DNA from: Novipirellula aureliae
GTDB taxonomy: Bacteria; Planctomycetota; Planctomycetia; Pirellulales; Pirellulaceae
Reading direction: 5' to 3'
Assembly: GCF_007860185.1 (NCBI RefSeq)
Contig: NZ_SJPY01000001.1
Span: 953,132 to 1,017,131, forward strand
DNA length: 64,000 nucleotides
Part shown: positions 847 to 61,098 of the stretch, piece by piece
How the letters are laid out: the number at the start of each line of letters is the position of its first letter
Numbering within the stretch: the first letter of the stretch is position 1
Notes under the pieces: generated by a model
Database searches by the model: none
What the model was told of the DNA's origin: nothing
What the model saw: only the letters and a program-made list of their open reading frames with translations
Translations under genes and position numbers: made by a program

Positions 847-891
847 TTGAGCGTTGAACTATTGAGCGTTGAACTATTGAGCGTTGAGATA
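847..891. repeat. 15-bp tandem repeat, three copies, over the stop of the GH105 gene
   Basis: Unit TTGAGCGTTGAACTA occurs at 847-861 and 862-876, with a 13/15 copy at 877-891. Read on the minus strand, the most upstream copy encodes the last residues (YLNAQ) and the next copy begins with the TAG stop (876-874). Because the unit is five codons long, a second in-frame TAG follows 15 nt later. Confidence 0.95.
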
Positions 892-2919
892 CATTTCCCA
901 ATCGGCCTCGCTCTTAATGACGCCCGCTTTTTTCCAGCCATAGCCGGCGCGGTAACGCACCATTCCGTTCTCATCCGATTTGGTAAGCAAGAGAATGTGG
1001 CCCGCGTCTGTGTCCGTTGCGTCTTTCGCTTCGACCACGCGAATTTCGTCAATACGCTCTGGGGCCATCATCGCTGCGGTCCCCAACTCGCTGGCATCTA
1101 GGTTTTCCCAGCATGCAATCCAGCCCTGTTCTTTATTGGAGATTGGCTTCGCTTTGCCATCATGAGTCGTCACGCCGATGCAGATCGGCAATCCGGCCGC
1201 GATTTCTCCATCCTTCGTAAAAACGGCACTGACATCAAAGAGTCGTGATCCCAGTTCGATGGTGATCGTTTTTTCTTCGCCATAGACCACGCCGTCAATT
1301 TCCCGCTCATAGCTTAACTTGAAGATCGACCTTGCGGGCGTGGATTCAATCACTTCGTATTTGGTGTAGGTTTCCAGTGGTTCGCGTTTGCCGTTGAGCC
1401 AAAGTCCCGTTCCGCCAGTCCCCGCGGAGGAACCGACGTGATAATTGTCGAGTCCTTCGCCGTGATCTTGGTGGTACGACTTCCCATTGCTGGCTTCTGC
1501 GTACCACTTGTCGATGATCGGATAGGTCACGCGTTTGAGCCAGCAGTCGATACCACTATTTTCCGCTCCGCTACGTAGTGCGGGACCATACGCGCGAAAG
1601 GCAATGAGATCGTTTTCCCAGGCGAAGTCGTCTTGGCGTTCGGGAACGAATCGACAAAATGTCCGAGTCTCATTTGTTTTACTTGATTGGTCAGGAGTCG
1701 CGGTAGGCCGTCCGGCACTGAGCCGCGGCTTTGCCGGGTTAACGGTTCCACCGAGCATCTTGTAGACTTCGGTGCCAGCGGCGAGAAACGCACCGATACC
1801 GTAGACCTCGGTCTTGTCTGGATAGGAATCGCCTGGTGCAGCGCCTACCGGTTGTACATACCCCAACAGACCTTCCTCGGTAACACATTGCGTCAGCGCC
1901 TGCCACCCTTTCAGCACTGCCGGCTCGTACGTCGCACGATCGAGGATTCCATTGTTAATGCCCCATGCCAAGCCAAAAGTAAAGAACGAGGTTCCGCTGG
2001 TTTCCTTGACCGGGTAACCCTCCACGCCGCCGAGCAGGCCCATTGACCAAGTGCCATCTTCTCGCTGAATGGTTTTGAGTCGCGCGGCCATCGTCTTGTA
2101 CAAGTCGACATAGAACTCACGGCCTTTCCAGTCTTTTGGTAGGTCAGGAAGCATGAGGGCAAGTCCGCCGAAGACCCAGCCATTGCCGCGTGCCCAAAAG
2201 ATTTTCTCGCCATTTTCCTCACGTTTTTCGAAGAAACTTGAGTCTCGCCAGAACAAACTTTCCTCTTTATCCCAGAGCAAATCACACGTGGCGTGGTACT
2301 CCTGATCCATGAAATCGAGGTACTTTTGATCGCCCGTTATTTTCGCCAATCGCGCCCAGACGGGCGGTGCCATAAACAATGCATCGCACCAACCCCAGCG
2401 ATTGTGCGCATCGGTCGGCGTCTCATTCCATAGCAGAGTTCCCGTCTTTGGATGGGCCAAAATATCATCGAACCTCGCTCGAATCGGTCCGATCATTGCT
2501 GGATCTTTGAAGTCCTCATACATCGACAGATAGAATTGGCCAACCGTGTGGTCATCCGCATGATATTTTCGCTTATGAGGGTTCCATCCATTTCGCTGGC
2601 CGATCTCGTACAGCCAATCCGCATACTTAACTGGATCATCCGCAACGCCTCGCCATTGATTCATACCTGCATAGAGGGCACCGTGATGCCAGGTCAAATC
2701 GTGATGTTTTGCAAGCGGTCTTCCCCCATTTTGCAATCGTTGGCGATCCCGATCGGACAAGGCTCGGTACTTACTGGAGTCCTCAAACGTCTTGATCTGC
2801 CAATCCGCAACTTTTTGCGTGATTGCTTTCACCTCTTCGGGAGTAGGCTTCGCGGCTTTCGCCGCTTGGATTCCAAAACACGCGATCAATGTCGCCAGAA
2901 ACACTGTGCTAAATTTCAT
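874..2919 (-). CDS. Exported GH105 unsaturated uronyl hydrolase fused to DUF4861
   Basis: I chose the ATG at 2919 because it opens a clear signal peptide (MKFSTVFLATLIACFGIQA) after an AAAAGG-like ribosome site; this gives 681 residues. Residues about 25-385 form a GH88/GH105 alpha/alpha toroid, with the motifs DDHTVGQFY (about 122) and WCDALFMAPP (about 177) holding the acidic residues expected in the active site. Residues about 425-681 match the DUF4861 family, which often accompanies pectin-degrading enzymes. GH105 enzymes remove the unsaturated uronic acid left by polysaccharide lyases; the product is what KduI and KduD use, which fits the operon. The order is kduD, 54 bp, this gene, 128 bp, kduI. 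The polysaccharide (pectin, ulvan or another uronan) cannot be told from sequence. Secretion is inferred from the signal peptide. Confidence 0.88.
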   Translation of the reverse strand: MKFSTVFLATLIACFGIQAAKAAKPTPEEVKAITQKVADWQIKTFEDSSKYRALSDRDRQRLQNGGRPLAKHHDLTWHHGALYAGMNQWRGVADDPVKYADWLYEIGQRNGWNPHKRKYHADDHTVGQFYLSMYEDFKDPAMIGPIRARFDDILAHPKTGTLLWNETPTDAHNRWGWCDALFMAPPVWARLAKITGDQKYLDFMDQEYHATCDLLWDKEESLFWRDSSFFEKREENGEKIFWARGNGWVFGGLALMLPDLPKDWKGREFYVDLYKTMAARLKTIQREDGTWSMGLLGGVEGYPVKETSGTSFFTFGLAWGINNGILDRATYEPAVLKGWQALTQCVTEEGLLGYVQPVGAAPGDSYPDKTEVYGIGAFLAAGTEVYKMLGGTVNPAKPRLSAGRPTATPDQSSKTNETRTFCRFVPERQDDFAWENDLIAFRAYGPALRSGAENSGIDCWLKRVTYPIIDKWYAEASNGKSYHQDHGEGLDNYHVGSSAGTGGTGLWLNGKREPLETYTKYEVIESTPARSIFKLSYEREIDGVVYGEEKTITIELGSRLFDVSAVFTKDGEIAAGLPICIGVTTHDGKAKPISNKEQGWIACWENLDASELGTAAMMAPERIDEIRVVEAKDATDTDAGHILLLTKSDENGMVRYRAGYGWKKAGVIKSEADWEMYLNAQ

Positions 2920-2961
2920 TTGTAAACCTTTTTCAATGGAGTCATTCACCGATCCGCACGT

Positions 2962-2979
2962 AACTTACCGAACTTACCG
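2962..2979. repeat. 9-bp tandem duplication over the kduD stop
   Basis: AACTTACCG occurs twice in direct succession (2962-2970, 2971-2979). On the minus strand this reads CGGTAAGTT twice; the TAA of the first copy (2976-2974) is the kduD stop codon. Confidence 0.9.
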
Positions 2980-3744
2980 ACCCATCCAACCGCCGTCGAC
3001 GGTCACAATGGATCCATTCATATAGGACGATGCCTCCGATGCTAGAAAGACACAGGGACCGCCGAAGTCTTCCGGTGTCCCCCACCGGTTGGCGGGTATG
3101 CGTTCCAAAATTGCTTTCGAACGAACGGGATCGTCACGCAGTGGTTGGGTATTCGCAGTTGCAATGTAGCCAGGTGCAATCCCGTTCACGTTGACTCCTT
3201 TGCTCGCCCATTCGTTGGCAAAAGACATCACCAAACGACCAACGCCCGCCTTGCTAGCTGCGTAACCGGGAACGGTGATGCCACCTTGAAACGTCAGCAG
3301 CGAGCAAGTGAAGACAATTTTTCCATTGCCCCGCTCTACCATGTCCTTGCCGAATTCACGTGTCAGGATGAATTGTGAATTCAGATTGATTTCGATGACG
3401 CGGTCCCAGTATTCATCTGGATGTTCGGCGATCGGTTTCCGCATGATCGTTCCGGCATTGTTGACCAGAATGTCGATCGTGCCAAACTTCTCTTTAACGA
3501 CTTTGATCCCCGCATAGAGGGATTCGCGGTCACTGAAGTCCGTTGAATAGAAGAAGTAGTTGCGACCAAGTTTTGCAATGATGTCTTTGGTAAACCCTCG
3601 CTCGCCCTCCTTCTCTGTGCGGCATAGGTTGATGATATCCGCACCGGCTTCTGCCAACGCCGTTGCCATCCCTTGGCCAATACCTGTTGAGGCCCCGGTC
3701 ACGAGTGCGGTTTTTCCCGCCAAATTAAATGAATCCAAAATCAT
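2974..3744 (-). CDS. kduD: 2-dehydro-3-deoxy-D-gluconate 5-dehydrogenase (SDR family)
   Basis: The start at 3744 (MILDSFNLAGKTALVTG) is preceded by GGAG and puts the Rossmann motif TGASTGIG near residue 17; the product is 256 residues, normal for KduD. Other short-chain dehydrogenase marks are NNAG, the catalytic Tyr-Lys pair in PGYAASKAG and the C-terminal VDGGWMGR ending typical of KduD. It reduces 2,5-diketo-3-deoxygluconate to KDG with NAD(P)H, directly after KduI. It is first in the operon kduD, GH105-DUF4861, kduI, so the promoter should lie in the 560 bp upstream. A related SDR with other sugar-acid specificity is possible, but kduI in the operon makes KduD the best call. Confidence 0.9.
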   Translation of the reverse strand: MILDSFNLAGKTALVTGASTGIGQGMATALAEAGADIINLCRTEKEGERGFTKDIIAKLGRNYFFYSTDFSDRESLYAGIKVVKEKFGTIDILVNNAGTIMRKPIAEHPDEYWDRVIEINLNSQFILTREFGKDMVERGNGKIVFTCSLLTFQGGITVPGYAASKAGVGRLVMSFANEWASKGVNVNGIAPGYIATANTQPLRDDPVRSKAILERIPANRWGTPEDFGGPCVFLASEASSYMNGSIVTVDGGWMGR

Positions 3745-4303
3745 GACTAACTCCGCCTTCTCTCTCTTGAAGCATTCCAAAGATCTTTTTGCAAACCACT
3801 CGGCAAACGACGAGCATTTCTTCCCAATACCATTCGCTCGCTATCGAGGGCTATTCGAACAACGCCGTTGAGGTGGGAAGGTTCCTCAAACCAAATCAGC
3901 AGGAAACCCAAATCGGTAGGCCAGTTCTACGGTGGCGGGTAGCGGAGGCCAGGGTGCATGAAAATGCATCGACCGCAGCGAGTACGAGAAATGTCGTTTT
4001 CATTTCAGATCGTTCAAACTGGGCTCTCGGTGTCAAACTGCTCGGCTAACGCGTGTTTCCAACGCTGGAGAGCGGCCAGAAACGATCACCTGAACTCTCG
4101 CAAGTGGCTTTGCACGATTACCTAACAATCATACCTACCTTTGATTCCGATTGACATAGGCCGATTATAGGTAAAAAACAGCCTCTGTCCAAGGGCACCA
4201 TCCGACGTTCCAGGTCAAGTCACTTTTCAGGTTGGATCTTAGCTTGGATACCGCTCTCGTTTATCGCATTGCGTCCGAATGAATGGCATCCGTCGTCGCC
4301 GTT
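3745..4303. other. Intergenic region upstream of kduD
   Basis: No convincing gene is present on either strand; the short open frames lack ribosome sites and recognisable motifs. The region must carry the promoter of the kduD operon (minus) but I could not pick a specific box. It ends in the tandem repeats at 4304. Confidence 0.6.
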
Positions 4304-4380
4304 GGTAGATCGTCACCGTTGGTAGATCGTCACCGTTGGTAGATCGTCACCGTTGGTAGATCGTCACCGTTGGTAGATCG
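4304..4380. repeat. 17-bp tandem repeat, 4.5 copies, over a stop codon
   Basis: GGTAGATCGTCACCGTT is repeated without change at 4304-4320, 4321-4337, 4338-4354 and 4355-4371, followed by a 9-base partial copy to 4380. The partial copy and the start of the next one code the C-terminus (IYQR) of the minus-strand gene; its TGA stop is at 4366-4364. The perfect identity suggests a young expansion. Confidence 0.97.
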
Positions 4381-5515
4381 GCAAGTAATGATACCGAACG
4401 CTCAAGCTCAGCACCGCTAGTGAAGTTGCATAGACCGCTCCAACGTTTCGCTCTTCACTGTTTTCGGCGACCCACGAACCATTGGTCTTTTGTGAATCGA
4501 GAAGCATTTTTGACGTTACTTCCTCGGCCGTTTTGGCATACTTTCCGCCAGCTTGATGCATTGCTTGAGCATAATAGTAAATGCCGTAAAAGAAAAAGCG
4601 ATCATTCTTTTCGGGTGGGTACTTTAGTAACCACTCCGCTGCGCTGGTAACCATCGGCGACTCGTACAGCCCGCACACTTGAATGGCCAGCAACCCAGCC
4701 GAGGTCATGGCGAACGTGCTTTGCCGTGAGCCGGGCATGTAAGTAAACCCACACCGAACAAGTGCACCGTCTTCCCCCGCCGGGGTTGCACTTGTAGCGG
4801 TCGTTAGTAGCTCCGGCTGGGCGAAAGATTCTTGTAGAAATTCTATCGCAAAATCGATCGCTTGCTTGGGGACGTTTAAGCTGTCGTTTTTTGCACTTCG
4901 TAGTGCCATCACCTGCCAAACCGATACGCTTAGATCGGAATCTCGGCTGGTTGGTTCGTAACGCCATCCACCACGATGCCGCCTGGATTTAGGGACTTTC
5001 TGCGCTGCCAAAATCAGGGCGATCGCGGGCGCGAGGGCCTCGAAAATTCGCCGGTTCTGATCGCGGCTAACCCCCATGCCCAGCATTTCCGTCAACATCA
5101 ACGTTGTGATGCCGTGTCCGTACATTCGCGATGAATCGTACTGGCCGAAATAGCCCTCTTTGGTTTGATGGACGGGCTTGAGTACATAGTCGATTGCGCG
5201 CCGCATCGAATGAGCAAATTTTGAATTGTCACTAGGTTGAGTTCCGATCGAAGCCATCGCCATGATCGCAAGCGAAGTCATGGTGACGGGATGGTTCCGG
5301 TCTGCGATCGCACCTTCGGAGTCTTGCTTGTCAATTAGAAAATCGATAGCTTGCTGAACCGCACGATCGGTTGCATCGGCAAGGTAGAGTCGTGCGGAAA
5401 ACTCTTCGGCGATTACGGGATCGGAATGCGAACCCGACCATGAGGATGCCAGCAATGCCCCGGCCGTCTGCATGGCTCGCCGGCGAGTATATTTGTCACG
5501 ATCATTAACCACCAT
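4364..5515 (-). CDS. Tat-exported prenyltransferase/squalene-cyclase-fold protein
   Basis: The ATG at 5515 lies one base after the TAA stop of the upstream gene, so a translationally coupled start giving 383 residues is preferred over the longer open frame. The N-terminus has a twin-arginine-like signal (YTRRRAMQTAGALLASSW). The rest shows repeated helical motifs of the alpha/alpha barrel seen in terpene cyclases and protein prenyltransferases, for example GAIADRNHPVTMTSLAIMAM and GAVYATSLAVLSLSV. I see no DxDD or metal-binding signature, so a binding or scaffold role outside the cytoplasm is more likely than terpene cyclisation. It is last in the operon with the BatA, VWA and coiled-coil genes. 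From general knowledge, such proteins accompany this cluster in planctomycetes; the function is not known. Confidence 0.75.
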   Translation of the reverse strand: MVVNDRDKYTRRRAMQTAGALLASSWSGSHSDPVIAEEFSARLYLADATDRAVQQAIDFLIDKQDSEGAIADRNHPVTMTSLAIMAMASIGTQPSDNSKFAHSMRRAIDYVLKPVHQTKEGYFGQYDSSRMYGHGITTLMLTEMLGMGVSRDQNRRIFEALAPAIALILAAQKVPKSRRHRGGWRYEPTSRDSDLSVSVWQVMALRSAKNDSLNVPKQAIDFAIEFLQESFAQPELLTTATSATPAGEDGALVRCGFTYMPGSRQSTFAMTSAGLLAIQVCGLYESPMVTSAAEWLLKYPPEKNDRFFFYGIYYYAQAMHQAGGKYAKTAEEVTSKMLLDSQKTNGSWVAENSEERNVGAVYATSLAVLSLSVRYHYLPIYQR

Positions 5516-5516
5516 T

Positions 5517-10685: not shown

Positions 10686-10689
10686 CCTT

Positions 10690-19632: not shown

Positions 19633-19821
19633 TTCGGCTCCGACAGTAACGATGATAGGAAAAGAAAGCGTAGGGAGTAACTGGAACCATCGTGCCGTCT
19701 GGCTTCTCGACGAGGGCTACGGTTTCTACCGGGGGCTGTGACACGTTTGCATATCAGTTTTTGCGGGCGTTCGAAGATTTGCGAAAAGATCTCTATCCAC
19801 TGCACGGTATCCACTGCAGGG

Positions 19822-19866
19822 TGATCTTACACACAGTGATCTCACACACAGTGATCTTACACACAA
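19822..19866. repeat. 15-bp tandem repeat, three copies, downstream of the permease
   Basis: TGATCTTACACACAG, TGATCTCACACACAG and TGATCTTACACACAA follow each other, then TGATCG. The array lies 32 bp beyond the stop of the NCS1 gene. A CACTGCA/TCCACTGCAGG duplication precedes it. Confidence 0.92.
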
Positions 19867-19897
19867 TGATCGTTTGATTTTGTTTAATCGTTGTTGT

Positions 19898-21280
19898 CTA
19901 CTGCGGTGCGCTAGGCATTGACAATATCTTTGTGGTCATGCCGATCTTGGCGAGTACTAGGTAGAGCACGAAGCCGACGATGATCGCTGCAACCGGTGGG
20001 CATGGCATCGCAAAATCGATGCCCAATCTTGGTGCTAAAGTGGGCCAGACACCGACGACGAATCCACATGCCCAAGAAATCCATCCCGCTGGATTGAACC
20101 CTGCACGCGGGCCAGGCCACTGCTTGCCAGCCAACAGATAATCAGCGGTCATTGCACCACAGATTGGCCCGAATGATGCGCCGATAAATCCGAAGACACC
20201 CGCTGCATTACCCGCCTGGCCTGACAAAACCAAGCCAATCGCACAAGCTGCACCGATGCCACACGAGACGAATGGATTGACACTTGGAAGCGTGTTTTTG
20301 AGACTCTCGGCAGCGATGAACGAGCTAAAGCAAGCAGGTGGAAAGGCCGCTAATGCCAACAGGAGCATGAAGACCTTTCCGGTCCCCGTCCCCATAATCG
20401 ACTCCATCAACTTGGTGGGTTCGAGTGGCGTTTCGCCGCCCGCGATCATGCCGCTTCCGTAAGTTCCCGCGACGATTAGTAGTGCCAAGCAACCGGTGAA
20501 GATCGTAACGCCAGCAACTCCGACCAAGCCGCCCAAGTGGACGTCCTTTTTGGTTGGGTTACTTGACGCGATGTCGACGCCCGCAGCACCTGCAGTGGCA
20601 AAGAAACCGACCACGTTTGCGATCAGAATGAACATCAAGTCCAATGATGAAACATTTAGGTCTGCGGTGACGCCCAGCATACTCGGCTCAAAACTTCCGA
20701 TACCCGAGAAGGTCTTGGCAAACAAAACCAAGAGGATGACTAGCGGGATGAGTGGCAAGTAGGTCGCTACTTTGGCAACATACGCGATTCCCTTCAAACC
20801 GACGAAGACCGCCAACAACGCCCACGCGATCGCAATTCCCATGTGGACCGCAGAACCACCGTCATGGCCTGCAAAACTGGCCACCAACATCGCAGAGAAG
20901 TATGCGTTAACGGCCAACCAACCGAATTGCAAGATACCCATAAAGAAGCCAGGCATGATAAAACCGCCTCTCACCCCGTAGGTGGACGTGCCGACCACGG
21001 CCAACGACAAGCCGGTCTTCATCCCCATCAAGCCGGGAGCTAGATAGCAGCAGAAGTGACAGACGAGGGCCGCAATGACGACTCCGAGCAAGGCGATCGC
21101 AAGCCCATGTCCAAGCACTCCGCCTGCTGTCGCCGCACCACTGGCGGGAACATTGTCCCAAAAAACAAACCACAACATAATTCCCGCGTAGGTTTGGGCC
21201 GTGCTTTTGAACCACGGCATTCGGCCTTCTTGTGGGACAGGTTTAGCTGACGCGACATAGTGCGGTAAGTTCGTTGCCAT
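19898..21280 (-). CDS. NCS1-family permease (cytosine/purine or related)
   Basis: Starting at ATG 21280 (MATNLPHYVASAKPV) gives 460 residues with about 12 hydrophobic segments. The order of helices and motifs such as YAGIMLWFVFWDNVP in helix 1, GFFATAGAAGVDIAS in the middle and SFGPICGAMTADYLL near the end fit the nucleobase:cation symporter-1 family (CodB type). These import cytosine, purines, hydantoins or thiamine-like compounds with Na+ or H+. The neighbours give no hint of substrate. A longer frame upstream exists but would place polar sequence before helix 1. Confidence 0.85.
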   Translation of the reverse strand: MATNLPHYVASAKPVPQEGRMPWFKSTAQTYAGIMLWFVFWDNVPASGAATAGGVLGHGLAIALLGVVIAALVCHFCCYLAPGLMGMKTGLSLAVVGTSTYGVRGGFIMPGFFMGILQFGWLAVNAYFSAMLVASFAGHDGGSAVHMGIAIAWALLAVFVGLKGIAYVAKVATYLPLIPLVILLVLFAKTFSGIGSFEPSMLGVTADLNVSSLDLMFILIANVVGFFATAGAAGVDIASSNPTKKDVHLGGLVGVAGVTIFTGCLALLIVAGTYGSGMIAGGETPLEPTKLMESIMGTGTGKVFMLLLALAAFPPACFSSFIAAESLKNTLPSVNPFVSCGIGAACAIGLVLSGQAGNAAGVFGFIGASFGPICGAMTADYLLAGKQWPGPRAGFNPAGWISWACGFVVGVWPTLAPRLGIDFAMPCPPVAAIIVGFVLYLVLAKIGMTTKILSMPSAPQ

Positions 21281-21576
21281 TGAGTTGTCTTTTGCGGGAA
21301 ATTGGTGAGGGGGAAGGGAGTGCTCATGCCCATCGCAAGAGTATAGCCGCGATGAAGCACCGGTAAACCAGGCTAAGGTAAAGAGATCTGCCATCGTGGC
21401 GAATATCGTCAAGACCTTCGTGCGCGATCACTTAGCGGGCGAAAGGCTTGACGACTTCCGCTGCCCAAAGATTAAGCGGTGGCAAGCTGCGAGCGAGAAT
21501 TGCTTCACAGAGGGCATCTCCGCGAGTAGAATCCGAATCAACGAATGATTTACACCCCAGAGCGAGGACTGAATGG

Positions 21577-24119: not shown

Positions 24120-25016
24120 ATGGACGAGTCGATTCAAAACAAGCTACCACAAAACAAGCTACCAATCGTCTCTCTGCGTATCGGGGCGTTTCTTTGTTTT
24201 GCTGGTTGGACTTGGGCACACTTTTATTGGGAAGGACCCTACAATGCGTTGCTTTGGCATGAGAGGGCATTTGAACTTGCAGGCCGCTTGGGCCTCGATT
24301 GGGATCGATTTGTTGGATCCGGTGCAGATGACGGCTTTGTGCAAAAATGGATCGCCAGAATCGGTTGGCTGTACCTGGGATGTACCATTCTGACGCTGAC
24401 TGTCAGAAAAAAATCCTGGGTACAGATGTCCGCCTTGGTGTTGGGTAGCGGGTTGCTGACGCTACTCAGTTACGCGGCCTACGTTTCATCGCAGTACCAG
24501 TTGCCGATGTTCGTTGAACAGGGCGGCCAGATATTGATGCCCATTCTGCTTGTCATGGCGTTAACCTTTGGGGTGACTCAGCGGGCGACCGTGGTCACCG
24601 CAATGATTGCCGTGATCACGACCTTTGCCGGTCATGGTTGTTATGCGCTTGGCCTTTGGCCGACACCCGGAAAATTTTGTGGCATGACAACCCTGATTCT
24701 CGGCGTTGAGTACCCTACTGCTCAAACGCTACTGCGAATCGCAGGCGTCCTCGATTTCTTGGTGTGCATTGGTATTTGCATTCCATGTACACGCCGGGTG
24801 AGTGCTTTGTATGCAACCCTCTGGGGGTTTTTGACCTCCATCGCGCGTCCGGTCGCCGGTATGTCGTGGGGACTCATTTATTGGGGAGCAGACCATTATC
24901 TTCACGAAGCAGTGTATCGAGCGCCACACTTTCTTGTTCCTTTTTATTTGTTTCTAATAGGGCGGCAGCCTTCCAAACCAAACAAACCCAATCGCCCAGT
25001 CCATGATCCAAAATAA
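24120..25016 (+). CDS. Multi-pass membrane protein of unknown function
   Basis: The 298-residue product has about seven hydrophobic segments (near 16-36, 77-95, 100-122, 138-154, 157-181, 204-223, 229-248) and a Lys/Pro/Asn-rich tail. The N-terminus contains an in-frame 15-bp duplication (NKLPQNKLP; 24135-24149 and 24150-24164). No family was recognised. It overlaps the PhoD-like gene by 14 bp, so the two are probably co-expressed. Its TAA stop is in another 15-bp tandem duplication (25013-25042), which also codes the N-terminus of the phosphatase (NKHRINKHR). Confidence 0.75.
   Translation: MDESIQNKLPQNKLPIVSLRIGAFLCFAGWTWAHFYWEGPYNALLWHERAFELAGRLGLDWDRFVGSGADDGFVQKWIARIGWLYLGCTILTLTVRKKSWVQMSALVLGSGLLTLLSYAAYVSSQYQLPMFVEQGGQILMPILLVMALTFGVTQRATVVTAMIAVITTFAGHGCYALGLWPTPGKFCGMTTLILGVEYPTAQTLLRIAGVLDFLVCIGICIPCTRRVSALYATLWGFLTSIARPVAGMSWGLIYWGADHYLHEAVYRAPHFLVPFYLFLIGRQPSKPNKPNRPVHDPK
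24135..24164. repeat. 15-bp in-frame tandem duplication at a gene start
   Basis: CAAAACAAGCTACCA occurs twice in direct succession and duplicates five residues of the N-terminal cytoplasmic tail of the membrane protein. Confidence 0.95.
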
Positions 25017-26847
25017 ACACCGTATAAATAAACACCGAATATTCGTACTCTTCTACTTGGCCATGCTCTTTGCCGACGCTTCGCTTTTCGCTCAGCAACA
25101 GAGCCAACGGCCCGCTCGAGCCGACCTATCGATCCCCGATGTCGAGCGGAGTGAGGTGATTTGTTTTGCGTTGTACACGGTCCACGACAAGACCCTTAAA
25201 CTGACTGCCCAACTTTATCCTCTTGAAAAAGGCGACCCCAAGACGGCTCGTTTGGAAATCCTCAAAGGTGTCCAGTGGTTGGAAGTTGCCAAGGCGGACG
25301 TAATCGAAGCAGGATGGACCGCACCCTTTCGCGTCGAAAACTGGGATGACACCCGCGCGTACCGCTATCGTGTGCGGCATGGTGCGGATGCGAAGTATGA
25401 AGGCGTTATCCGCAAAAACCCTGTGGACAAAGCTGAGATGATTGTCGCTGGATTTACCGGCAACTCGATTCAACCGGCTCACGGTGGCGATATTTCTCGT
25501 CAGGATCTCCTTGAAAACGTGAAGAAGATCGATGCCGACGTACTGTTCTTTTCCGGCGATCAAGTCTACGACCACCATCGCCATTATGCGGCATGGCTAA
25601 AATTCGGGCGAGACTTCGGAGATATCATCAAAGACCGTCCGACGATCTGTTTGCCCGATGACCACGATGTCGGACAACCCAACCTGTGGGGCGAAAGCGG
25701 AAAGATCTCGACGCTCGGCGGTGCCGCCGACGGAGGTTATTCTCAACCTGGCGTTTATGTCCAGGAAGTGGAACGAGCGCAAACGAGCCATCTGCCCGAC
25801 CCGGTCGACCCGCAAAGGATTGGCCAAGGCATTGGCGTCTATTTCACCAATTTGAATTGGGGGAATGTCGACTTCGCGATTCTAGAAGACCGCAAGTTCA
25901 AGACCGGTCCAGCGGGGCGAGTTCCCAAACAAGGGCCGCGACCTGATCATATTCGCAATCCCGATTATGATCCCGCCAGTGTCGATGTGGAGGGTGCCAT
26001 TTTGCTGGGCCAACGACAACTCGATTTCATTGATGACTGGGCCCAAGATTGGAAAAATGCAAAGATGAAAGTTGCATTGTCGCAAACGATCTTTTGTGGA
26101 GGTGCTCACATTCACGGCACCGCGAACGGTCGGCTGCATGCCGATATGGACTCCAACGGTTGGCCACAAAGCGGACGCAATCGTGCACTCCGATCGTTAC
26201 GCAAAGCGTTCGCGTTCCACTATGCGGGTGATCAACACCTAGCCACGATCTTTCATCACGGCATTGACGAACACCGCGACGCGATCTGGTCGTTCTGTGT
26301 TCCCTCCATCGCCAACCTTTATTTGCGTTGGTGGAAACCGCTTGAACCGGGAACGAATCGTGAACCGGGCAGCTTCGAATACACGGGGGATCAAGTCGAT
26401 GGATTCGACAACAAAGTCACCAACTACGCAGCCGCGAACCCTGAGGAAACACCGGCGGGCAACTTGTTGAACACGCGCGCGGCGGGTTTTGGCATTGTGC
26501 GTCTCAATACGAAAACACGCCAGATCACGATGGAATGTTGGCCACGAAACGTCGACATCACCGATCCCGCCGCCAGGCAATACCCGGGATGGCCCCGCAC
26601 GATCTCGCAATTCGACAACTACAATCCACCATCGTGGGGAAAGCTTGACGCGTTGACGTTTGACGTCGATTCACCCGTTGTCCAACTAATCGATTCGGAG
26701 AACGCCGAAATTCTATATACGGTTCGTGTGAACGGGCGTCGTTTTGTGCCTCATGCGCCGCGCGGTCGAACGTTCGTCATCAAAGCGGGCAAAGACGCTC
26801 CGGAAACGATCGTGAAAGAAAAAGCTCGCGTGGGCGACGATGGGTAG
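25003..26847 (+). CDS. PhoD-like metallophosphatase, exported
   Basis: The 614-residue product has a hydrophobic N-terminal segment (IFVLFYLAMLFADASLFA) consistent with export. The metallophosphatase motifs of the PhoD family are present: FFSGDQVYDHH near 185, LPDDHDVGQ near 218 and FHYAGDQHLATIFHHG near 405, with the N-terminal beta domain before them. PhoD enzymes are Ca/Fe-dependent alkaline phosphatases or phosphodiesterases that free phosphate from organic esters. The ATG lies inside the preceding gene (14-bp overlap); the first codons fall in a 15-bp duplication. The stop TAG (26845-26847) lies in a 16-bp duplication. Confidence 0.85.
   Translation: MIQNKHRINKHRIFVLFYLAMLFADASLFAQQQSQRPARADLSIPDVERSEVICFALYTVHDKTLKLTAQLYPLEKGDPKTARLEILKGVQWLEVAKADVIEAGWTAPFRVENWDDTRAYRYRVRHGADAKYEGVIRKNPVDKAEMIVAGFTGNSIQPAHGGDISRQDLLENVKKIDADVLFFSGDQVYDHHRHYAAWLKFGRDFGDIIKDRPTICLPDDHDVGQPNLWGESGKISTLGGAADGGYSQPGVYVQEVERAQTSHLPDPVDPQRIGQGIGVYFTNLNWGNVDFAILEDRKFKTGPAGRVPKQGPRPDHIRNPDYDPASVDVEGAILLGQRQLDFIDDWAQDWKNAKMKVALSQTIFCGGAHIHGTANGRLHADMDSNGWPQSGRNRALRSLRKAFAFHYAGDQHLATIFHHGIDEHRDAIWSFCVPSIANLYLRWWKPLEPGTNREPGSFEYTGDQVDGFDNKVTNYAAANPEETPAGNLLNTRAAGFGIVRLNTKTRQITMECWPRNVDITDPAARQYPGWPRTISQFDNYNPPSWGKLDALTFDVDSPVVQLIDSENAEILYTVRVNGRRFVPHAPRGRTFVIKAGKDAPETIVKEKARVGDDG
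25013..25042. repeat. 15-bp tandem duplication over a stop codon and the next gene's start region
   Basis: ATAAACACCGTATAA followed by ATAAACACCGAATAT (13/15). The TAA at 25014-25016 ends the membrane protein; in the other frame the repeat codes NKHRINKHR of the phosphatase leader. Confidence 0.9.
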
Positions 26848-26866
26848 CTACGACGATGGGTAGCTA
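26835..26866. repeat. 16-bp tandem duplication over the phosphatase stop
   Basis: CGACGATGGGTAGCTA occurs twice without mismatch (26835-26850, 26851-26866); the TAG of the first copy is the stop codon. Confidence 0.95.
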
Positions 26867-31053: not shown

Positions 31054-31057
31054 TCCG

Positions 31058-34541: not shown

Positions 34542-34875
34542 TTGCCTTTTTTTTAACCGCGCGTACCAAGCAGTTCGCGTTAGTATCGCGAATCTTTGTA
34601 TCGCGAATCACGCGGTCTGATGAGCACGCGGTTGACCAGTAAAACAACACTTCCAGCAGAACCTCCTTTTGCCGTTCCGTAGGGCCTTTTGGCATGAATT
34701 CCATGCACGGTCACCGCCAGGTTTCTGAAGGAATCGATTTTTCATCCACATCGAAAGCCGTCCGGTCTCACCCTGAAATCAAAGATTGATAGGCACTCGT
34801 GGTGTATCAAAGCCTCGTTTTCGAGTAGTGGACGAGGTAACGAGTCCCTTTGGATCGCTTCCAACGTCCAAACGG
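34542..34875. other. Convergent intergenic region
   Basis: Lies between the convergent phosphatase and RND genes. It contains the 15-bp duplication at 34584-34613; otherwise no gene, clear terminator or other feature was seen. Confidence 0.5.
34584..34613. repeat. 15-bp tandem duplication after the inositol phosphatase gene
   Basis: TATCGCGAATCTTTG then TATCGCGAATCACGC: the first ten bases are identical and in register, the last five diverge. It begins 42 bp after the stop codon. Confidence 0.7.
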
Positions 34876-41082: not shown

Positions 41083-41608
41083 CGCACTCTCCGATCGATC
41101 TGCACGGCGCTGTGTGAAATTGTTCGCGATGTCCACCCAAGGTCATCCGGGGACATGACCGGACACCCCGCGTTGCAACAAATCCTTGTCCTTCTCGGGC
41201 TGTCGCGGTGCTCTCTTGCCACTGTTGGCGTAGAGGAAAACACCTGGAACACAACTGTGTAAAGCAATTTTGGCAGCAAAGGGACATTGGCAGTCCAGGG
41301 ACAGAGCATCATCTCAGGTGATACAGCAACACATCGAACAGAATTCATTGGTATTCTTGTTTGCCTATCGTGTTTGATTATCAACAATCAGGCATGCAAA
41401 CTCGTGAGATAGGCTCCTTCCCCCGGAATGGCCGCAAGGGGTGCGTACCTTCCTGCTGAGTGCTTAAAGACACGGCTTCGAGAACATTGACTTGCATCTT
41501 TTTTTTCTCTACGCCAACGGCGTTACATTGCGCAGCCCAGGGTTAAAGCTGGCAATCGCTTTTGCGATTGACGCTGCAACCCTGGGGAGACTTGCATCGT
41601 TTTTTTTT

Positions 41609-41858
41609 CTACGCCAACGGCGTTACATTCCGCAGCCCAGGGTTAAAGCTGGCAATCGCCTTTGCGATTGACGCTGCAACCCTGGGTAGACACGAAACGC
41701 CCACCCCGTGCCCCACCCCGGTTTTGGCGGCGAAGCCGCCGAAACCGGGGTGGGGCACGGAGAGGGGGGGAAACCAAGCAACCCAGGGTTGCGGTTTGCT
41801 GCGCTTGCGCTGGCAAAGCCTTAACCCTGGGCTATGTTATGTAACGCCGTTGGCGTAG
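41609..41858. repeat. 250-bp nested palindrome, copy 1
   Basis: The outer arms CTACGCCAACGGCGTTACAT and its complement (ends at 41858) are perfect. Inside, CCCAGGGTT/AACCCTGGG occurs in both halves, so each arm can fold alone (with GCAATCGC/GCGATTG inside) or pair with the other arm. The centre is a GC-rich hairpin with the stem CCGTGCCCCACCCCGG. The right flank begins directly after the last base. Confidence 0.9.
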
Positions 41859-42212
41859 AGGAAAACACCTGGAACACAACTGCGTAAAGCAATTTTGGCA
41901 GCAACGTACGGCAGCAAAGGGACAGAGCATCATCTCAGGTGATACAGCAACACCCGAACAGGATTCATCGGTATTCTTGTTTGCCTATCGGGGGCAGTCC
42001 AGGGACAGAGCATCATCTCAGGTGATACAGCAACACCCGGACAGAATTCATTGGTATTCTTGTTTGCCTATTGTGTTTGATTATCAACAATCAGGCATGC
42101 AAACTAGTGAGATAGGCTCCTTCCCCCGGAATGGCTGCAATGAGTGCGTACGTTCCTGCTGAGTGCTTGAAAGACACGGTTTCGAGAACACTGACTTGCA
42201 TCGTTTTTTTTC

Positions 42213-51000: not shown

Positions 51001-51205
51001 AGCTATTTCCTTTTGGTTTGGTTGTCGACAACAAGGCGGTCGGCAAATGTATTTGAGCAGATACTCTATCCTATATGGATTCTATCAGAAATCGGTTCGC
51101 CCACCATTTCTTTCAGGCGATCGGGAAGTCACTTCACGAGACCGATTCTTCGGTGTATCCTGACCCTTCAGGAACTGGAAAGAAACGAATAGTGACAAAG
51201 CGACG

Positions 51206-52381: not shown

Positions 52382-52409
52382 GGCGGCGTGTCGCAATGTC
52401 GCTCGAGCA

Positions 52410-53765
52410 TCACGCTACCTTTCGATAGCTCGCTTGATCGGTATCGATGCGATACAAGTGCTCTCGGGTTGGCGGCATCCCCGACAATCCTTTGGATGCC
52501 TTTTTCGTCGCGACGACTTGAAAAATCTTGATCGAACCTGCCGTGAAGCCGCCCGAGGCACCGGCCAGATAGGCGACCCATAGTCGGTAACGTTCTTGGC
52601 CCACGAGTTCGATCGCCTGTTCCTTATTCGCCGATAGGTTTTTGCACCAAAACCGGGTCGTCAATGCATAATGCTCACGCCATGATTCGACATCGTGGAC
52701 TTCGAAACCACTTTGTTCCATAAAATCGGTGGTCATCCCGACGGGGGTCAATTCAGAACCTGGAAAAATGTACTTGAGCAAGAACTTTCGTTCGGGTCGG
52801 ATTTTTGCCGCATGCCGCTTCGACTTTTTCGAACTTCTAGCGATCGCGTGATTGAGTACAACGCCTCGATCGCGAAGCATTGAATTGATCTTGTCGAAAT
52901 AACGCGGGTAGTTTGCGACGCCGATATGCTCGGACATTCCAATACTGGATATCTTATCATAGGTACCGACATGGTCTGCGTAGTCACAGATCTCGACGCT
53001 AACTTGATCGGTTAGCCCGAGTTCGGCGATTTTGGCTTTGGCGTAATCATGTTGCTGCTGCGACAACGTGATGCCATGGGCTTTGACGCCAAAATGTTGG
53101 GCTGCATGACAGATCAACCCACCCCAACCGCAGCCGATGTCGAGCATCGTATCGCCGGGTTCCAGCCGCAGTTTACGGCAAATCATATCGAGTTTGTCAT
53201 GCTGAGCTTGATCGAGCGAGTTGTTCCAGTCACGGAAATAGCCACACGTATAAATCATTTCTTTGCCCAGGAACAATTTATAGAAGTCGTTCCCGACATC
53301 GTAGTGAAATTGGATGTAGTCGGTGTTTTTGCGTTTCGATTCGTCGCGTCCGACCATATCGTCGCGGAAACCGGCGTCAAGATCGGCGACTTCCGTCTTC
53401 GCAAACAGGAAAGGCAACGTCCGTTTGGCAACCATCCATTTGCCAATTTCTTTTAGCCGTTTTCGGTTGGATCGTTTTGTTTTGAGAGCCTCGGAAAAAT
53501 CGATCAAATCGCCGCCTTCGAAATCGATATGCCCGGTCGCATAGAGTCGTACGAGGGTTTCGAGCCCCGGTTTTCGCAATAATGCACCGATCACCCCCGG
53601 CCCGGATAGACTGATGATAAACTTTCCATCGGCTGCCGCACCTAGGGGAATAACGTCGCCATCCCAAAGTCGCACCGATGCATTCAGATCGAGTGGTTCG
53701 GCAACTTCACGGAGAATTTCTTTAATTGAACGAAGTTGCGTTTGCGCTGAAAATAGGTGTCCCAT
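52410..53765 (-). CDS. cfa: Cyclopropane-fatty-acyl-phospholipid synthase
   Basis: The ATG at 53765 follows GGAGG and gives 451 residues; the longer frame upstream overlaps the next gene and is unlikely. The S-adenosylmethionine motif TMLDIGCGWGGL lies near 205, with YDVGNDFYKLFL and YTCGYFRDW before it and ISSIGMSEHIGVANYPRYF after it, all standard for Cfa. It adds a methylene group to membrane-lipid double bonds. An N-terminal part of about 120 residues matches the SCP2-like segment of Cfa. Confidence 0.92.
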   Translation of the reverse strand: MGHLFSAQTQLRSIKEILREVAEPLDLNASVRLWDGDVIPLGAAADGKFIISLSGPGVIGALLRKPGLETLVRLYATGHIDFEGGDLIDFSEALKTKRSNRKRLKEIGKWMVAKRTLPFLFAKTEVADLDAGFRDDMVGRDESKRKNTDYIQFHYDVGNDFYKLFLGKEMIYTCGYFRDWNNSLDQAQHDKLDMICRKLRLEPGDTMLDIGCGWGGLICHAAQHFGVKAHGITLSQQQHDYAKAKIAELGLTDQVSVEICDYADHVGTYDKISSIGMSEHIGVANYPRYFDKINSMLRDRGVVLNHAIARSSKKSKRHAAKIRPERKFLLKYIFPGSELTPVGMTTDFMEQSGFEVHDVESWREHYALTTRFWCKNLSANKEQAIELVGQERYRLWVAYLAGASGGFTAGSIKIFQVVATKKASKGLSGMPPTREHLYRIDTDQASYRKVA

Positions 53766-53842
53766 CCGTGGAACCTCCAGAGGTAGGAAAGGTAAGTTTT
53801 TCGGGAAGCGGGTCGATCCTACCAAAAACAGTGCAAAATCAC

Positions 53843-56560: not shown

Positions 56561-56696
56561 AACTATCCTATCATCGCTAGTACAAAAGTGTTCGGTTGAC
56601 CATTTGCCATTAGAGCGTATGAACCAAAGAAGAACCTAACCGATTCGCGATGGATCCTTCCATGCAGTAACGATCGCGACAGTATGCCGCATGTCT

Positions 56697-57917
56697 TCAC
56701 CATGCGAAAAACGGCCACGGGCCCTCACCCGAATGACCAGGAGGGATTTCCACAAAGCCAATGCTTTGGCCTAACGATACGAGGTCGCCCGACCCGAGAC
56801 TCGGAACCGCTGCGACCACCGCATTCTCCTTACCCTGTTCAAAACTGTTTTCAACATGGCGGACTAACCGCATGACGTGAAGCGGCAGTGACTTGCTTGC
56901 CGAATCATGTAGTCGAACTTGCGGTGGATGCTCTCGCCAATCGTTTTGACCCGACATCTTAGCCAGTAGAGGGCGTGCGAAGCGTCTCGCTCCGACCGTC
57001 GCGCTGACGGGGTTTCCAGGCAAACCTAGGATCAACTTTCCTGCTCTCGTTGCCGCACCTAGGATTGGCTTCCCCGGGCGGATCGGTAATCCATGAAAGA
57101 CGATCTCGGCACCGAACCCGGGAATGATCTTTGGCACGTAGTCGTAGTCGCCTTGGGAGACCCCGCCGGTCAGAAACACCGCATCGGATTCAGACAAGCA
57201 TTTTTCTAAACTTTCAGCAAGCGAGAAACGATCATCTCGGCAATGATGATGATCGATAAACCGGACCGAGGCGATCGATCGCAACATCGATTCGATCGCC
57301 GCTGCATTACTATTTCTTAGTTGCCACGGCCTAGGCGATTCCTGTTCGAAACGATCAACTTCGTTCCCCGTTGTAATGAGCGACACACGAACTTGGTCAA
57401 ATACGTTTGCCGAATAGGATCCAAAATTGACCATTGTGGCGATCGAAGCAGGGGTGACAAGCGATCCAGCAGCCAAGACACAGTCATTCGTCTTGGCATT
57501 CTCGCCCGCTCGACGAATATGTTCTCCTGGTGAGGCATTCCTAGCCGAGGAGAGAAACTCGATCGAGTGCTCGTGTTCAATCGTATCTTCTCGTTTCACG
57601 ACCGCTTCACAGCCGTCGGGTACGACGGCCCCGGTAAAGATCCGGAGCACGGCATTGGGAATCATTGGCGGAGGAGCCTCGCCCGCAACACATTCCCCGG
57701 CAATCGGAACGGCAGAGCGTGAACCGAAATCGCTCAGACGAATTGCGTAGCCATCCATTGCCGACACGTCCGCAGCTGGACTGTCTCGATCAGCCAACAC
57801 GTCACTGGCTAATACACGACCTACCAGCTGGTCCGATTCAAGTTGATGAGTTTCACGGCGTAACAAGCGTTCTGCCAGCGCATCGATCGCACGATTGGGA
57901 TGATTGAAATCCGTCAC
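56697..57917 (-). CDS. moeA: Molybdopterin molybdenumtransferase
   Basis: The 406-residue product has the MoeA landmarks DVSAMDGYAIR near 48, IFTGAVVPDGCEAVVKRED near 92, VSLITTGNEV near 180, FLTGGVSQGDYDYVP near 247 and LGLPGNPVSATVG near 295. MoeA inserts molybdate into adenylylated molybdopterin. The ATG overlaps the TGA of the beta-CASP nuclease gene by 4 bp (57914-57917). No other moa or mog gene is in the window. Confidence 0.93.
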   Translation of the reverse strand: MTDFNHPNRAIDALAERLLRRETHQLESDQLVGRVLASDVLADRDSPAADVSAMDGYAIRLSDFGSRSAVPIAGECVAGEAPPPMIPNAVLRIFTGAVVPDGCEAVVKREDTIEHEHSIEFLSSARNASPGEHIRRAGENAKTNDCVLAAGSLVTPASIATMVNFGSYSANVFDQVRVSLITTGNEVDRFEQESPRPWQLRNSNAAAIESMLRSIASVRFIDHHHCRDDRFSLAESLEKCLSESDAVFLTGGVSQGDYDYVPKIIPGFGAEIVFHGLPIRPGKPILGAATRAGKLILGLPGNPVSATVGARRFARPLLAKMSGQNDWREHPPQVRLHDSASKSLPLHVMRLVRHVENSFEQGKENAVVAAVPSLGSGDLVSLGQSIGFVEIPPGHSGEGPWPFFAW

Positions 57918-59500
57918 TTTTGAAGTGTCTCCGCTAAACGCCGGATAAGATCCTGTTTTTCATGCGCGTTTTTGGCCGCGTTTAGTTTCGCTCCCAGGTC
58001 GAGCATGAATTGGGCGTAGTCGTTATTCCAATCCCTGACACGTTGGCTGGCGTCGAGTCGCGGTTGTTGAGCGGCCACAGCGGTCGGTTTTGAGCCAGCG
58101 ATTAACTTGAAGCGTTGGTCAAATTGAGGCAAGAAGATTTTTTCTTTATCGATACCACGTTCATGGAGTTTCTCTCGCATCACGCTACGAACATCGTCTT
58201 CCCCATGATTCAAGAACAGTGCGGTCTTGACGGGGCCACGTTCGACGACCCAATCGAGTAACTCTCCTTGATCGGCGTGAGCGGAATAGTTGCCCAGGCG
58301 TCGGATCGCCGCTTCGACCTTATATTCTTTGCCATAGATTCGAACCCGTTTCGCACCGCTCGTAATGATCTGCCCCAACGTTCCTGGAGCCTGGTATCCG
58401 ACAAACAGAACCGTAGAGTTCTTTTTCCAGATATTGTTTTTGAGGTGATGCTTGATTCGACCCGCAGTACACATGCCGCTGGCCGAGATGATGATCGCTC
58501 CCTTGGCAACATGGTTGATCGCCTTGCTCTCTTCGACACTTTCGACGATATGGAAGCGTCGATGGCGAAAAATTTTTGCTTCATCAATCTCAATGTCCTC
58601 GAGTTCTTTGGAATGCTTGACAAAGACTTCGGTCACCTTTTTCGCCAATGGTGAATCGAGGTAAACATCGCATTCGGGGATAAGTCCTTGGCTGAGCAAT
58701 ACACCGATGTCGTGGAGTAATTCTTGGCTGCGTTCCACGGCGAAGGATGGGATGACAACATTCCCCCCTCGTTTCAGACCGGCTGTCAATTCCTCTTGCA
58801 GCATTTCCCGTCGTCGCTCCAGAGTGTAGTCATCGCGGTCTCGATTGCCGTAGGTGCTTTCGCAAACGACGTAATCAAACCCAGCCGGTGCATCGGGTTC
58901 AGGATGAAAAGCCTTCTCGTCTGGCCCAAGATCACCGGAGAACAGCATCCGAATTGCTTGGTCTGAATCGGCATCATCAAGACGCACTTCGATCGATGCC
59001 GAGCCGAGCAGGTGGCCAGCGTTCCAAAGCCGGCAGCGGATTGAGGGATCCGGCGCAAACCATTGTTCGTACCCAACTTGCTCCAATTGGGCAAGTGTTT
59101 GCTCGGCGTCCGCCAAGGTGTAGATCGGCTCGACTAGGTCTTCGCCCTTTTGTCGTAGCTTGCGATTAAGACGTTCCGTGTTGCTTTCTTGAATGTAAGC
59201 GGAATCGCGGAGCATGAATTCAAGCAGATCACAGGTGGCTTCCGTCGCATAGATTTTTCCTGAAAATCCAGACCGAACGAGCTTGGGAAGTAAGCCCGAA
59301 TGATCGATGTGCGCGTGAGTCAGAAGCAAAAAATCGACTTTGGATGCATCGAATGGGAATGGTTGATAATTGAGCGATTGAGTCGTCTTGGTCCCTTGAA
59401 ACAATCCGCAATCGACAAGAAACCGTTTATCGCCGCTCTCGATATGGGAGCAAGATCCTGTGACGGTGCCGGCAGCACCACAAAAAGTTAATGACGCCAT
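57914..59500 (-). CDS. Metallo-beta-lactamase/beta-CASP RNase-type hydrolase
   Basis: The 528-residue product has all beta-CASP motifs: FLVDCGLFQG, LLTHAHIDHSGLLP (metal site), MLFSGDLGPDEK, VVCESTYGNRD, VIPSFAVERSQELL and, in the RMMBL part, NYSAHADQGELLDWV. Such proteins resemble the archaeal and eukaryal CPSF73/Ysh1 nucleases, and bacterial members are thought to process RNA. It overlaps moeA, an odd pairing for these two functions. A predicted cytoplasmic enzyme; substrates unknown. Confidence 0.9.
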   Translation of the reverse strand: MASLTFCGAAGTVTGSCSHIESGDKRFLVDCGLFQGTKTTQSLNYQPFPFDASKVDFLLLTHAHIDHSGLLPKLVRSGFSGKIYATEATCDLLEFMLRDSAYIQESNTERLNRKLRQKGEDLVEPIYTLADAEQTLAQLEQVGYEQWFAPDPSIRCRLWNAGHLLGSASIEVRLDDADSDQAIRMLFSGDLGPDEKAFHPEPDAPAGFDYVVCESTYGNRDRDDYTLERRREMLQEELTAGLKRGGNVVIPSFAVERSQELLHDIGVLLSQGLIPECDVYLDSPLAKKVTEVFVKHSKELEDIEIDEAKIFRHRRFHIVESVEESKAINHVAKGAIIISASGMCTAGRIKHHLKNNIWKKNSTVLFVGYQAPGTLGQIITSGAKRVRIYGKEYKVEAAIRRLGNYSAHADQGELLDWVVERGPVKTALFLNHGEDDVRSVMREKLHERGIDKEKIFLPQFDQRFKLIAGSKPTAVAAQQPRLDASQRVRDWNNDYAQFMLDLGAKLNAAKNAHEKQDLIRRLAETLQK

Positions 59501-59867
59501 CTTTTAGATTTGCTCTCACGAGGTCCGAGGAAAATGTATGCTAAATGTTGTATCATAATCGACAGCAGAAGTCGCCAAGACTATCGTCGATTCACCTTGT
59601 GGACCAAAACGCTTCTCGTTTTTCCGCTCCGAACACGGCACGCGGATTGCACCCGTCTGCTCAACTGGGTTATCTACCATACACAAGATTTTCGCCCCCA
59701 TTACATCTCCGACTTTCCCAATGCAGCCCACTCACACCCGTTCTGAAAAACGCCACGCAAAACACCACGCACGAAACGATTCGACTCTTGGATTTGACGA
59801 CACTGGAATGATGACTTCGAGGGTATTGCCGGAAGAACAGGAAGTTCGTCAAAATTTACCGGTCAAC
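59501..59867. other. Divergent intergenic region
   Basis: Between the nuclease gene (minus) and the oxidoreductase (plus). In-frame ATGs at 59721, 59808 and 59811 could extend the oxidoreductase, but the encoded residues are low-complexity and polar. Otherwise no gene or motif was seen. Confidence 0.45.
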
Positions 59868-60806
59868 ATGCGGGCGATCGTGTACCGAGACTACGGTGGT
59901 CCTGAAGTGTTGGAGCTTGCCGAAACCAAAACACCTTTTCCCGATCCAAAGAAAGTCATCATCCGAGTCGAAGCGGCGGGAGTCAATCCAATCGACTATC
60001 GACTTCGTGCCGGCCAAGCTCGTTATGTATTGCCAGGCGGCTTCCCGAGAATTCCTGGCTATGACGTCGCAGGAACGATCGTGTTTGCCCCCGGCGAAAG
60101 CGGTTTCTACCCCGGCGATCGTGTCATGGCATTCTTGGACAATAAGTATGGTGGCGGTTATGCAGAGTACGCACGGTGTCGATCCAATAGTGTCGCCAAA
60201 ATCCCCGAAGACATGTCTATCGAACACGCGGCGGCAATTCCTTTGGCGGCCACCACGGCACTCCAATCGCTGCGCGATCACGGAAAACTAAAGGCAAAGG
60301 ATCGAGTGCTGATCAACGGGGCAAGTGGTGGGGTCGGAGCCTTTGCCGTTCAGATTGCCAAAGCCTACGGAGCACTTGTTACAGGAGTCGCGAGCGGTGC
60401 CAATGAATCGTTTGTGATGTCACTCGGTGCCGATGAATTCATCGATTACGAAAAAGTCGATTTCACCCGGGCGGGTCAAGCCTGGGATCTGATCTTTGAT
60501 GCCGCTGGTAAAAGTGGTTACCTCAAAGCTCGCAACGTGATGACCCAAAAGGGCCGCTTCGTTTCAACCGAGCCGAATTTGTCAGGTGCCATCATGACTA
60601 TTTTAACCAAATTTTCGTCCAAAGGTGGTGTGATCATGTTGGCAACACCTTCACGTGATGATTTGCGCGAACTCGTGCAGCTGTATACTGACGAGAAGCT
60701 GACGGTGACGATCGATCATCTCTTCCCACTCGCGCAAGCAAGCGATGCACACAAGCGGATCGAAAAAGGTGTTGACCGAGGAAAAATTGTCCTGACAACC
60801 AAGTAG
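59868..60806 (+). CDS. Zinc-independent alcohol dehydrogenase/quinone oxidoreductase
   Basis: From ATG 59868 (MRAIVYRDYGGPEVLELAE) the 312-residue product is a medium-chain dehydrogenase: IRVEAAGVNPIDYRLR near 30, GYDVAGTIV near 60, AAIPLAATTALQSL near 128 and the nucleotide loop LINGASGGVGAFAVQIA near 148-164. The zinc-binding Cys/His residues are absent, so the quinone oxidoreductase (QOR) branch, NADPH-dependent, fits best. The stop codon (60804-60806) is the first repeat boundary of a long tandem array. Confidence 0.87.
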   Translation: MRAIVYRDYGGPEVLELAETKTPFPDPKKVIIRVEAAGVNPIDYRLRAGQARYVLPGGFPRIPGYDVAGTIVFAPGESGFYPGDRVMAFLDNKYGGGYAEYARCRSNSVAKIPEDMSIEHAAAIPLAATTALQSLRDHGKLKAKDRVLINGASGGVGAFAVQIAKAYGALVTGVASGANESFVMSLGADEFIDYEKVDFTRAGQAWDLIFDAAGKSGYLKARNVMTQKGRFVSTEPNLSGAIMTILTKFSSKGGVIMLATPSRDDLRELVQLYTDEKLTVTIDHLFPLAQASDAHKRIEKGVDRGKIVLTTK

Positions 60807-61098
60807 CAGCGTCTCTCCGAGCCGTTGAACGCACGCATCTTTCACACCACCAACAGTAGCAGCGTCTCTCCGAGCCGTTGAACGCACGCATCTTTCACAC
60901 CACCAACAGTAGCAGCGTCTCTCCGAGCCGCTGAACGCAACGCATCTATCACACCACCAACAGTAGCAGCGTCTCTCCGAGACGTTGAACGCACGCATCT
61001 TTCACACCACCAACGGTAGCAGCGTCTCTCCGAGACGTTGAACGCAACGCATCTTTCACACCACCAACAGTAGCAGCGTCTCTCCGAGACGTTGAACG
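60803..61098. repeat. 53/54-bp tandem repeat, 5.5 copies, starting at a stop codon
   Basis: Units begin GTAGCAGCGTCTCTCCGAG at 60803, 60856, 60909, 60963, 61016 and 61070 (partial to 61098). They differ by a few substitutions (GCCG/GACG) and by a one-base insertion in units three and five. The TAG of the oxidoreductase is bases 2-4 of the first unit. Frames on the minus strand read a repeated peptide rich in Cys, Arg and Trp and are regarded as non-coding. Confidence 0.95.

Follow-up and report, generated by a model that had tools for sequence, protein, structure and literature searches.

Most stop-spanning tandem repeats in a stretch of the Novipirellula aureliae genome belong to a dense population of 12-18-bp duplications

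The 64,000-nucleotide stretch of the Novipirellula aureliae genome analyzed here (the window) contains six tandem arrays that each overlap the stop codon of a gene, as a first-pass annotation of the letters had pointed out. Five of these arrays form part of a population of mostly 12-18-bp duplications found genome-wide, and the sixth is an array of repetitive extragenic palindromic (REP) elements. The population is best read as the product of an active local-duplication process combined with selective tolerance, to which we assign a probability of roughly 0.65 and within which the molecular cause remains a proposal. The stop-codon pattern in itself is ordinary tolerance.

The window lies on contig C1 (1,553,630 bp, 21% of the genome), on which a codon-pair gene caller made for the analysis placed 1141 genes, with 84% of the sequence coding. 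These 1.554 Mb contain 155 exact tandem duplications of 12-18 bp, or about 100 per Mb (152 or 155, depending on the smallest period allowed), against none at these periods in a Markov-4 random copy of the contig (compared with 152 real ones). A second genome of the same genus, G001, has a density like that of the contig, with 41 in 0.383 Mb. All other samples fall between 0 and 25 per Mb: four duplications in 0.160 Mb of G002, also of the genus, three in 0.400 Mb of G013, five in 0.320 Mb of four other genomes of the family, and, across 75 non-planctomycete loci totalling 1.35 Mb, 7 or 10 arrays, again depending on the smallest period allowed. Five named planctomycete loci, which were kept out of the control group, gave no array of period 12-18 in 0.08 Mb. 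By these counts, the density of the population on the contig exceeds that in most sampled genomes about 4- to 20-fold. Its period range is sharp, with eight arrays at 10-11 bp versus 152 at 12-18 bp and a mode of 15. Exact 9-bp arrays occur 40 times on the contig versus five times in the Markov-4 shuffle, and their density of 25.7 per Mb compares with 26.7 per Mb in the 75 non-planctomycete loci; the 9-bp array at the kduD-like gene of the window is of this everyday kind.

Selection on reading frame is apparent in this population. Among the 12-18-bp arrays, the period is a multiple of three in 60 of 62 that lie in coding sequence (CDS) versus 35 of 82 that lie between genes, and this contrast indicates that the duplications are real and filtered by selection. 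Genes contain 71 exact arrays of period 10-120, and in 59 of these the period is 12, 15 or 18 bp, equal to four, five or six codons. Between genes, exact copies outnumber copies with one mismatch at each period from 12 to 18 (multi-copy arrays being counted more than once in this comparison), and most duplications are therefore young or have been kept alike.

The placement of arrays relative to gene boundaries was evaluated with exact arrays as the main measure; arrays found with Tandem Repeats Finder (TRF) include imperfect ones. Two null models were used, in which either the whole array was placed randomly over positions touching non-coding DNA or only the duplicated unit was placed randomly over permitted DNA; the unit-placement null is in our view the better model of the first duplication event. 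The contig carries 248 exact arrays of period 9-120, of which 130 are intergenic, 103 lie in CDS, 12 span a stop and three span a start. Starts are avoided under either null: three exact arrays were found where 11.4 (unit) or 21.5 (whole array) are expected, and eight TRF arrays where 20.4 or 40.3 are expected. Gene ends look favored beside starts for this reason. The 50 bp that follow stops hold 22 arrays, a density of 579 per Mb, whereas the 50 bp that precede starts hold nine, or 210 per Mb (Fisher P=0.011), an asymmetry that tolerance predicts. Because the original stop is retained in the first copy, duplications that span a stop survive at about the rate of those in the DNA immediately downstream; the stop-spanning density is approximately 464 per Mb of target (nine over 1141 stops x 17 bp), beside the 579 per Mb of the downstream flank. 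The first-pass annotation had offered tolerance of stop-spanning events, attraction to gene ends and selection for spare stops as interpretations, and it is the first of these that the avoidance of starts and the denser 3' flanks bear out.

The junctions of the duplications carry information on how they arise. In 36 of 46 clean intergenic two-copy cases, identity extends only 0-3 bp beyond the unit, which matches the expectation without microhomology, while the remaining 10 show 5-8 bp. There is clearly a second class of duplications with microhomology. The units resemble the adjacent sequence in GC content and are, if anything, slightly low in self-complementarity. As microhomology is lacking from most clean intergenic cases and no Ku protein was found (see below), the duplications may arise locally at a nick or at an unprocessed flap of about 15 nt that would be retained instead of trimmed. 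Slipped-strand replication could serve as a second route, giving rise to the class with 5-8 bp of microhomology and to the growth of longer arrays. Selection acts as a filter, such that almost only multiples of three survive in genes, starts are avoided and stop-spanning events are tolerated. We put forward more tentatively, and consider it rather improbable in this full form, that the lineage possesses an undescribed Ku-independent process that inserts 12-18-bp tandem copies at a high rate, mostly without microhomology, and thereby seeds peptide repeats and intergenic arrays.

The strongest competing proposal is that plain slipped-strand replication makes all of the duplications and that the missing microhomology reflects flanking matches that were lost or mutated. 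It draws on the cases with at least 4 bp of extra identity, which make up 10 of the 46 clean intergenic cases and 12 of the 25 clean ones in CDS, and on the many arrays with three or more copies or with degenerate flanks (39 and 40 of 155, respectively). However, 36 of the 46 clean intergenic cases lie close to the no-microhomology expectation, and shorter units would be favored by slippage, yet periods of 10-11 bp are the rare ones. Slippage as the sole source is possible but, in our judgment, clearly the less likely account.

A different kind of explanation, also raised in the first-pass annotation, holds that duplications are attracted to gene ends, through slippage or breakage at sites of translational or transcriptional termination, or that spare stop codons are selected for. 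Taken alone, the window favors attraction, as five of its six exact non-CDS arrays span a stop (P=8e-4 or 3e-5), but the window was chosen for this pattern. The comparison with intergenic expectation, run on the whole contig, did not sustain it: of the 145 exact arrays of period 9-120 that are not wholly in CDS, 12 span a stop versus 12.7 (unit) or 25.2 (whole array) expected. At periods 12-18, nine exact arrays span a stop versus 6.3 (unit, P=0.16) or 13.4 (whole array), and without the window the count is six versus 6.1 or 12.8. The window supplies five of the 12 exact stop-overlapping arrays of the contig; outside it, seven of 139 exact non-CDS arrays span a stop versus 12.1 (unit) or 24.1 (whole array) expected. 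Two results lean the other way. TRF arrays span a stop in 31 of 201 cases versus 23.7 (unit, P=0.047) or 56.0 (whole array) expected, and G001 has four arrays over stops in 383 kb versus 0.84 (unit, P=0.006) or 2.2 (whole array, P=0.18), an expectation that is lowered because the sample contains runs of N and only 65% of it was called coding. Attraction could also account for arrays being commoner just after stops than just before starts. Yet gap densities are 310 per Mb for convergent, 254 for divergent and 371 for codirectional gene pairs; convergent gaps, which contain gene ends only, are no denser than codirectional ones, and ends as such are therefore not hot. Stops are not clearly preferred on the contig, and we read the window as a local cluster with a stop preference that is slight at most. 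As an observation apart, intergenic arrays cluster above expectation only at short range, with nine pairs less than 200 bp apart versus 3.5 expected and 24 pairs less than 5 kb apart versus 21.3.

Selection for spare stops fares no better. Five of the 12 stop arrays have a period divisible by three, about the one-third expected, and in five of the 12 the next in-frame stop is at least 48 nt away or there is none within 147 nt. Spare in-frame stops are not evidently under selection. Attraction to gene ends or spare-stop selection is an improbable cause of the pattern. The 3' ends of orthologs, which mostly agree with tolerance, were compared at 13 chosen loci, with one paralog (L032, 34% identity) dropped from the kduD count and with L025 and L117 representing the same place in G001. 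All seven orthologs of the kduD-like gene that were compared lack the array and have the same last codons, the prenyltransferase-fold-like gene has a homologous stop and no array in four of four relatives, and the four ortholog 3' ends compared for the PhoD-like gene are without an array. For N. aureliae genes that have arrays, the sampled stretches offered one usable ortholog case, in which the G001 ortholog is without the repeat.

We accord about as little probability to footprints of mobile elements, in the form of 12-18-bp target-site duplications left behind after loss of the element. Such footprints would fit the narrow size range and the lack of microhomology, and a CG signal four bases outside the boundaries was seen in 30 cases with zero excess identity. 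That signal was absent from 36 further clean cases (15 versus 14.0 expected), and no weight is placed on it here. No such flanking duplication was evident when the contig's 60 longest self-repeat pairs were inspected, although this is a weak test, as most of these pairs are tandem arrays.

Staggered breaks that are filled in and then joined by Ku-type end joining would likewise yield tandem copies without microhomology, and duplications of this kind are known from other organisms. Matches to Ku (PF02735) were, however, not found in the N. aureliae genome (G000), G001 or G002, while eight of 40 relatives have one, and a match to ATP-dependent ligase (PF01068) was not found in G000, G001, G002 or G008; Ku-type joining is therefore very unlikely. 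G013, G015, G020 and G021 differ from these four genomes in the ligase match; the four without it include the two genomes with the highest load, in samples too small to call a link. Two further candidates were rejected. Loss of MutS1, of the DNA polymerase I (Pol I) 5' exonuclease domain, of RecJ or of XseA does not apply, all being present in eight of eight genomes, and counts of reverse transcriptase matches (PF00078) do not follow the load, G008 having the most matches and a low load. An assembly artefact, i.e., contig ends joined with uncollapsed short overlaps, could produce short units and many two-copy arrays, but it would ignore reading frame, which is kept in 60 of 62 genic arrays versus multiples of three in 35 of 82 intergenic ones, and G001 has the same density, so that this explanation was rejected on the frame filter as hardly credible.

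Several observations weigh against local duplication combined with tolerance as we propose it. The share of junctions without microhomology depends on the filter: extra identity is limited to 0-3 bp in 43 of 68 intergenic cases when no filter is applied, and in only 13 of 25 clean CDS cases. Flaps would be expected to be trimmed by the Pol I 5' exonuclease, and this enzyme is present. Genus membership does not by itself set the load, since G002 is low. The slight TRF excess at stops under the unit null and the four stop-overlapping arrays of G001 likewise count against the proposal. The PhoD-like protein ends approximately 10 residues earlier than its G002 ortholog; its end has changed in this lineage, by the array event or by another. 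Finally, no new duplication was observed directly.

The sixth stop-spanning array of the window, at 60802-61099 on the (+) strand, is of a different nature. It consists of 5.6 copies of a 53-bp unit with a GTAG-headed, REP-type palindrome (TRF, ORF list, letters, Pfam) and covers the stop at 60804-60806 of a zinc-type dehydrogenase gene, with the GTAG of the first unit supplying the TAG. The unit carries the core GTCTCTCCGAGAC, of which the contig has 118 copies (115 outside the window; 110 intergenic), often in runs 26-46 bp apart. The first-pass annotation had concluded from the differing units that no dispersed element is involved, which does not hold for this array. The core palindrome is GTCTC-TCC-GAGAC, and the head positions are conserved among the 118 copies (G 97%, T 92%, A 95%, G 92%); the window array has the GTAG head. 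On the contig, 82 heads match, and at three of them the TAG serves as the stop of a called gene; the window copy is a variant outside those 82. The array is a GTAG-type REP repeat. In the available text of a study of GTAG-tagged REP elements (PMC3733652), these elements share the GTAG head, the palindrome and the many intergenic copies, with no feature found there that distinguishes the array from them. According to the same text, ORFs next to GTAG REPs often take their TAG stop from the ends of the element, so that the case at 60802-61099 already has an explanation; the superfamily is also said there to be present in Planctomycetes. In the sampled stretches of seven relatives, the exact core was absent. 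The genome has 13 matches to Y1_Tnp (PF01797), on C1, C2, C3, C6, C7, C8, C9 and C10, and at the three of these places that were examined (L252 and two on C1) no copy of the core lies beside the match.

The overlaps of arrays and stops in the 64-kb window are based on TRF, the list of ORFs with their stop coordinates and a reading of the letters, which agree for all six. On the (-) strand, a 15-bp array (2.7 copies, 847-887; TRF, ORF list, Pfam PF07470) covers the stop at 874-876 of a GH88/GH105-type gene (874-2949), and the 9-bp array (2.1 copies, 2962-2980; TRF, ORF list, Pfam) covers the stop at 2974-2976 of the kduD-like short-chain dehydrogenase gene. Also on the (-) strand, a 17-bp array (5.2 copies, 4293-4380; TRF, ORF list, letters) covers the stop (4364-4366) of the prenyltransferase-fold-like gene, and its first copy is made up of the final 17 nt of that gene; Pfam matches of this gene to squalene-hopene cyclase are weak and below cut-off, with nothing stronger. 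On the (+) strand, an imperfect 15-bp array (2.1 copies, 93% matches, 25011-25041; TRF, ORF list, letters) covers the stop at 25014-25016 of gene 24120-25016 and also lies within the first codons of a long ORF (25003-26847), whose start our own gene caller sets at 25063. A 16-bp array (2.0 copies, 26835-26866, (+) strand; TRF, ORF list, PF09423) covers the stop at 26845-26847 of the PhoD-like gene.

Three further sites had been listed in the first-pass annotation. The 15-bp array at 19821-19871 (3.4 copies, (-) strand; TRF, ORF list) does lie within 45 bp of a stop, 27 bp beyond that of gene 19898-21412. The duplication at 24135-24164 (15 bp x 2, (+) strand), which had been placed at a gene start, is actually inside the reading frame, where it doubles five codons near the N-terminus (codons 6-15) of the membrane-protein gene starting at 24120. 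The site near 34584 comprises two 12-bp copies separated by 3 nt and is missing from the TRF list (score of at least 30). Longer imperfect arrays occur in a gene-poor stretch of the window at 41489-41691 (100 bp x 2) and 41918-42071 (83 bp x 1.9); a 14-base piece of the latter, AGGGACAGAGCATC, has 15 copies on the contig, 12 of them outside the window. Self-comparison of the contig also revealed larger-unit tandem arrays or self-repeats at 747400-750796, 298807-299683, 1545195-1546235, 844980-845838 and 935407-936392 of C1.

The arrays described here resemble minisatellites in that units of at least about 10 bp are repeated head to tail. In the available text of Subirana and Messeguer 2019 (PMC6749651), which counts arrays of at least four copies with units of 10-260 nt, Rhodopirellula baltica is tabled with 29 satellites, or 4.06 per Mb. 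Judged by that text, the bacterial minisatellites and the arrays of N. aureliae have in common short units in tandem, both in and between genes, with multiples of three predominating where genes are involved, whereas the arrays here differ in having mostly two to three copies and in forming one narrow class of 12-18 bp. Local tandem duplications derived from flaps have been proposed for yeast and human cells (PMC10287905; preprint PMC12633238), and an origin from unprocessed flaps may be what these proposals, in the parts available, share with ours. The duplications of eukaryotic replication mutants are given in the available part of PMC10287905 as 23-49 bp with microhomology, unlike those found here in a bacterium that has a Pol I 5' exonuclease domain. 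Our literature searches returned, besides the REP study (PMC3733652), no work in which tandem duplications span bacterial stop codons, and, within the limits of those searches, none that describes such a dense, narrow size class in a planctomycete lineage.

What matters more than the pattern at stop codons is that fresh 12-18-bp duplications, sharply limited in size, are present at several times the usual load in two related genomes, that of N. aureliae and G001. These genomes offer a natural system in which to study how short duplications are formed by bacteria without Ku and how peptide repeats first arise.

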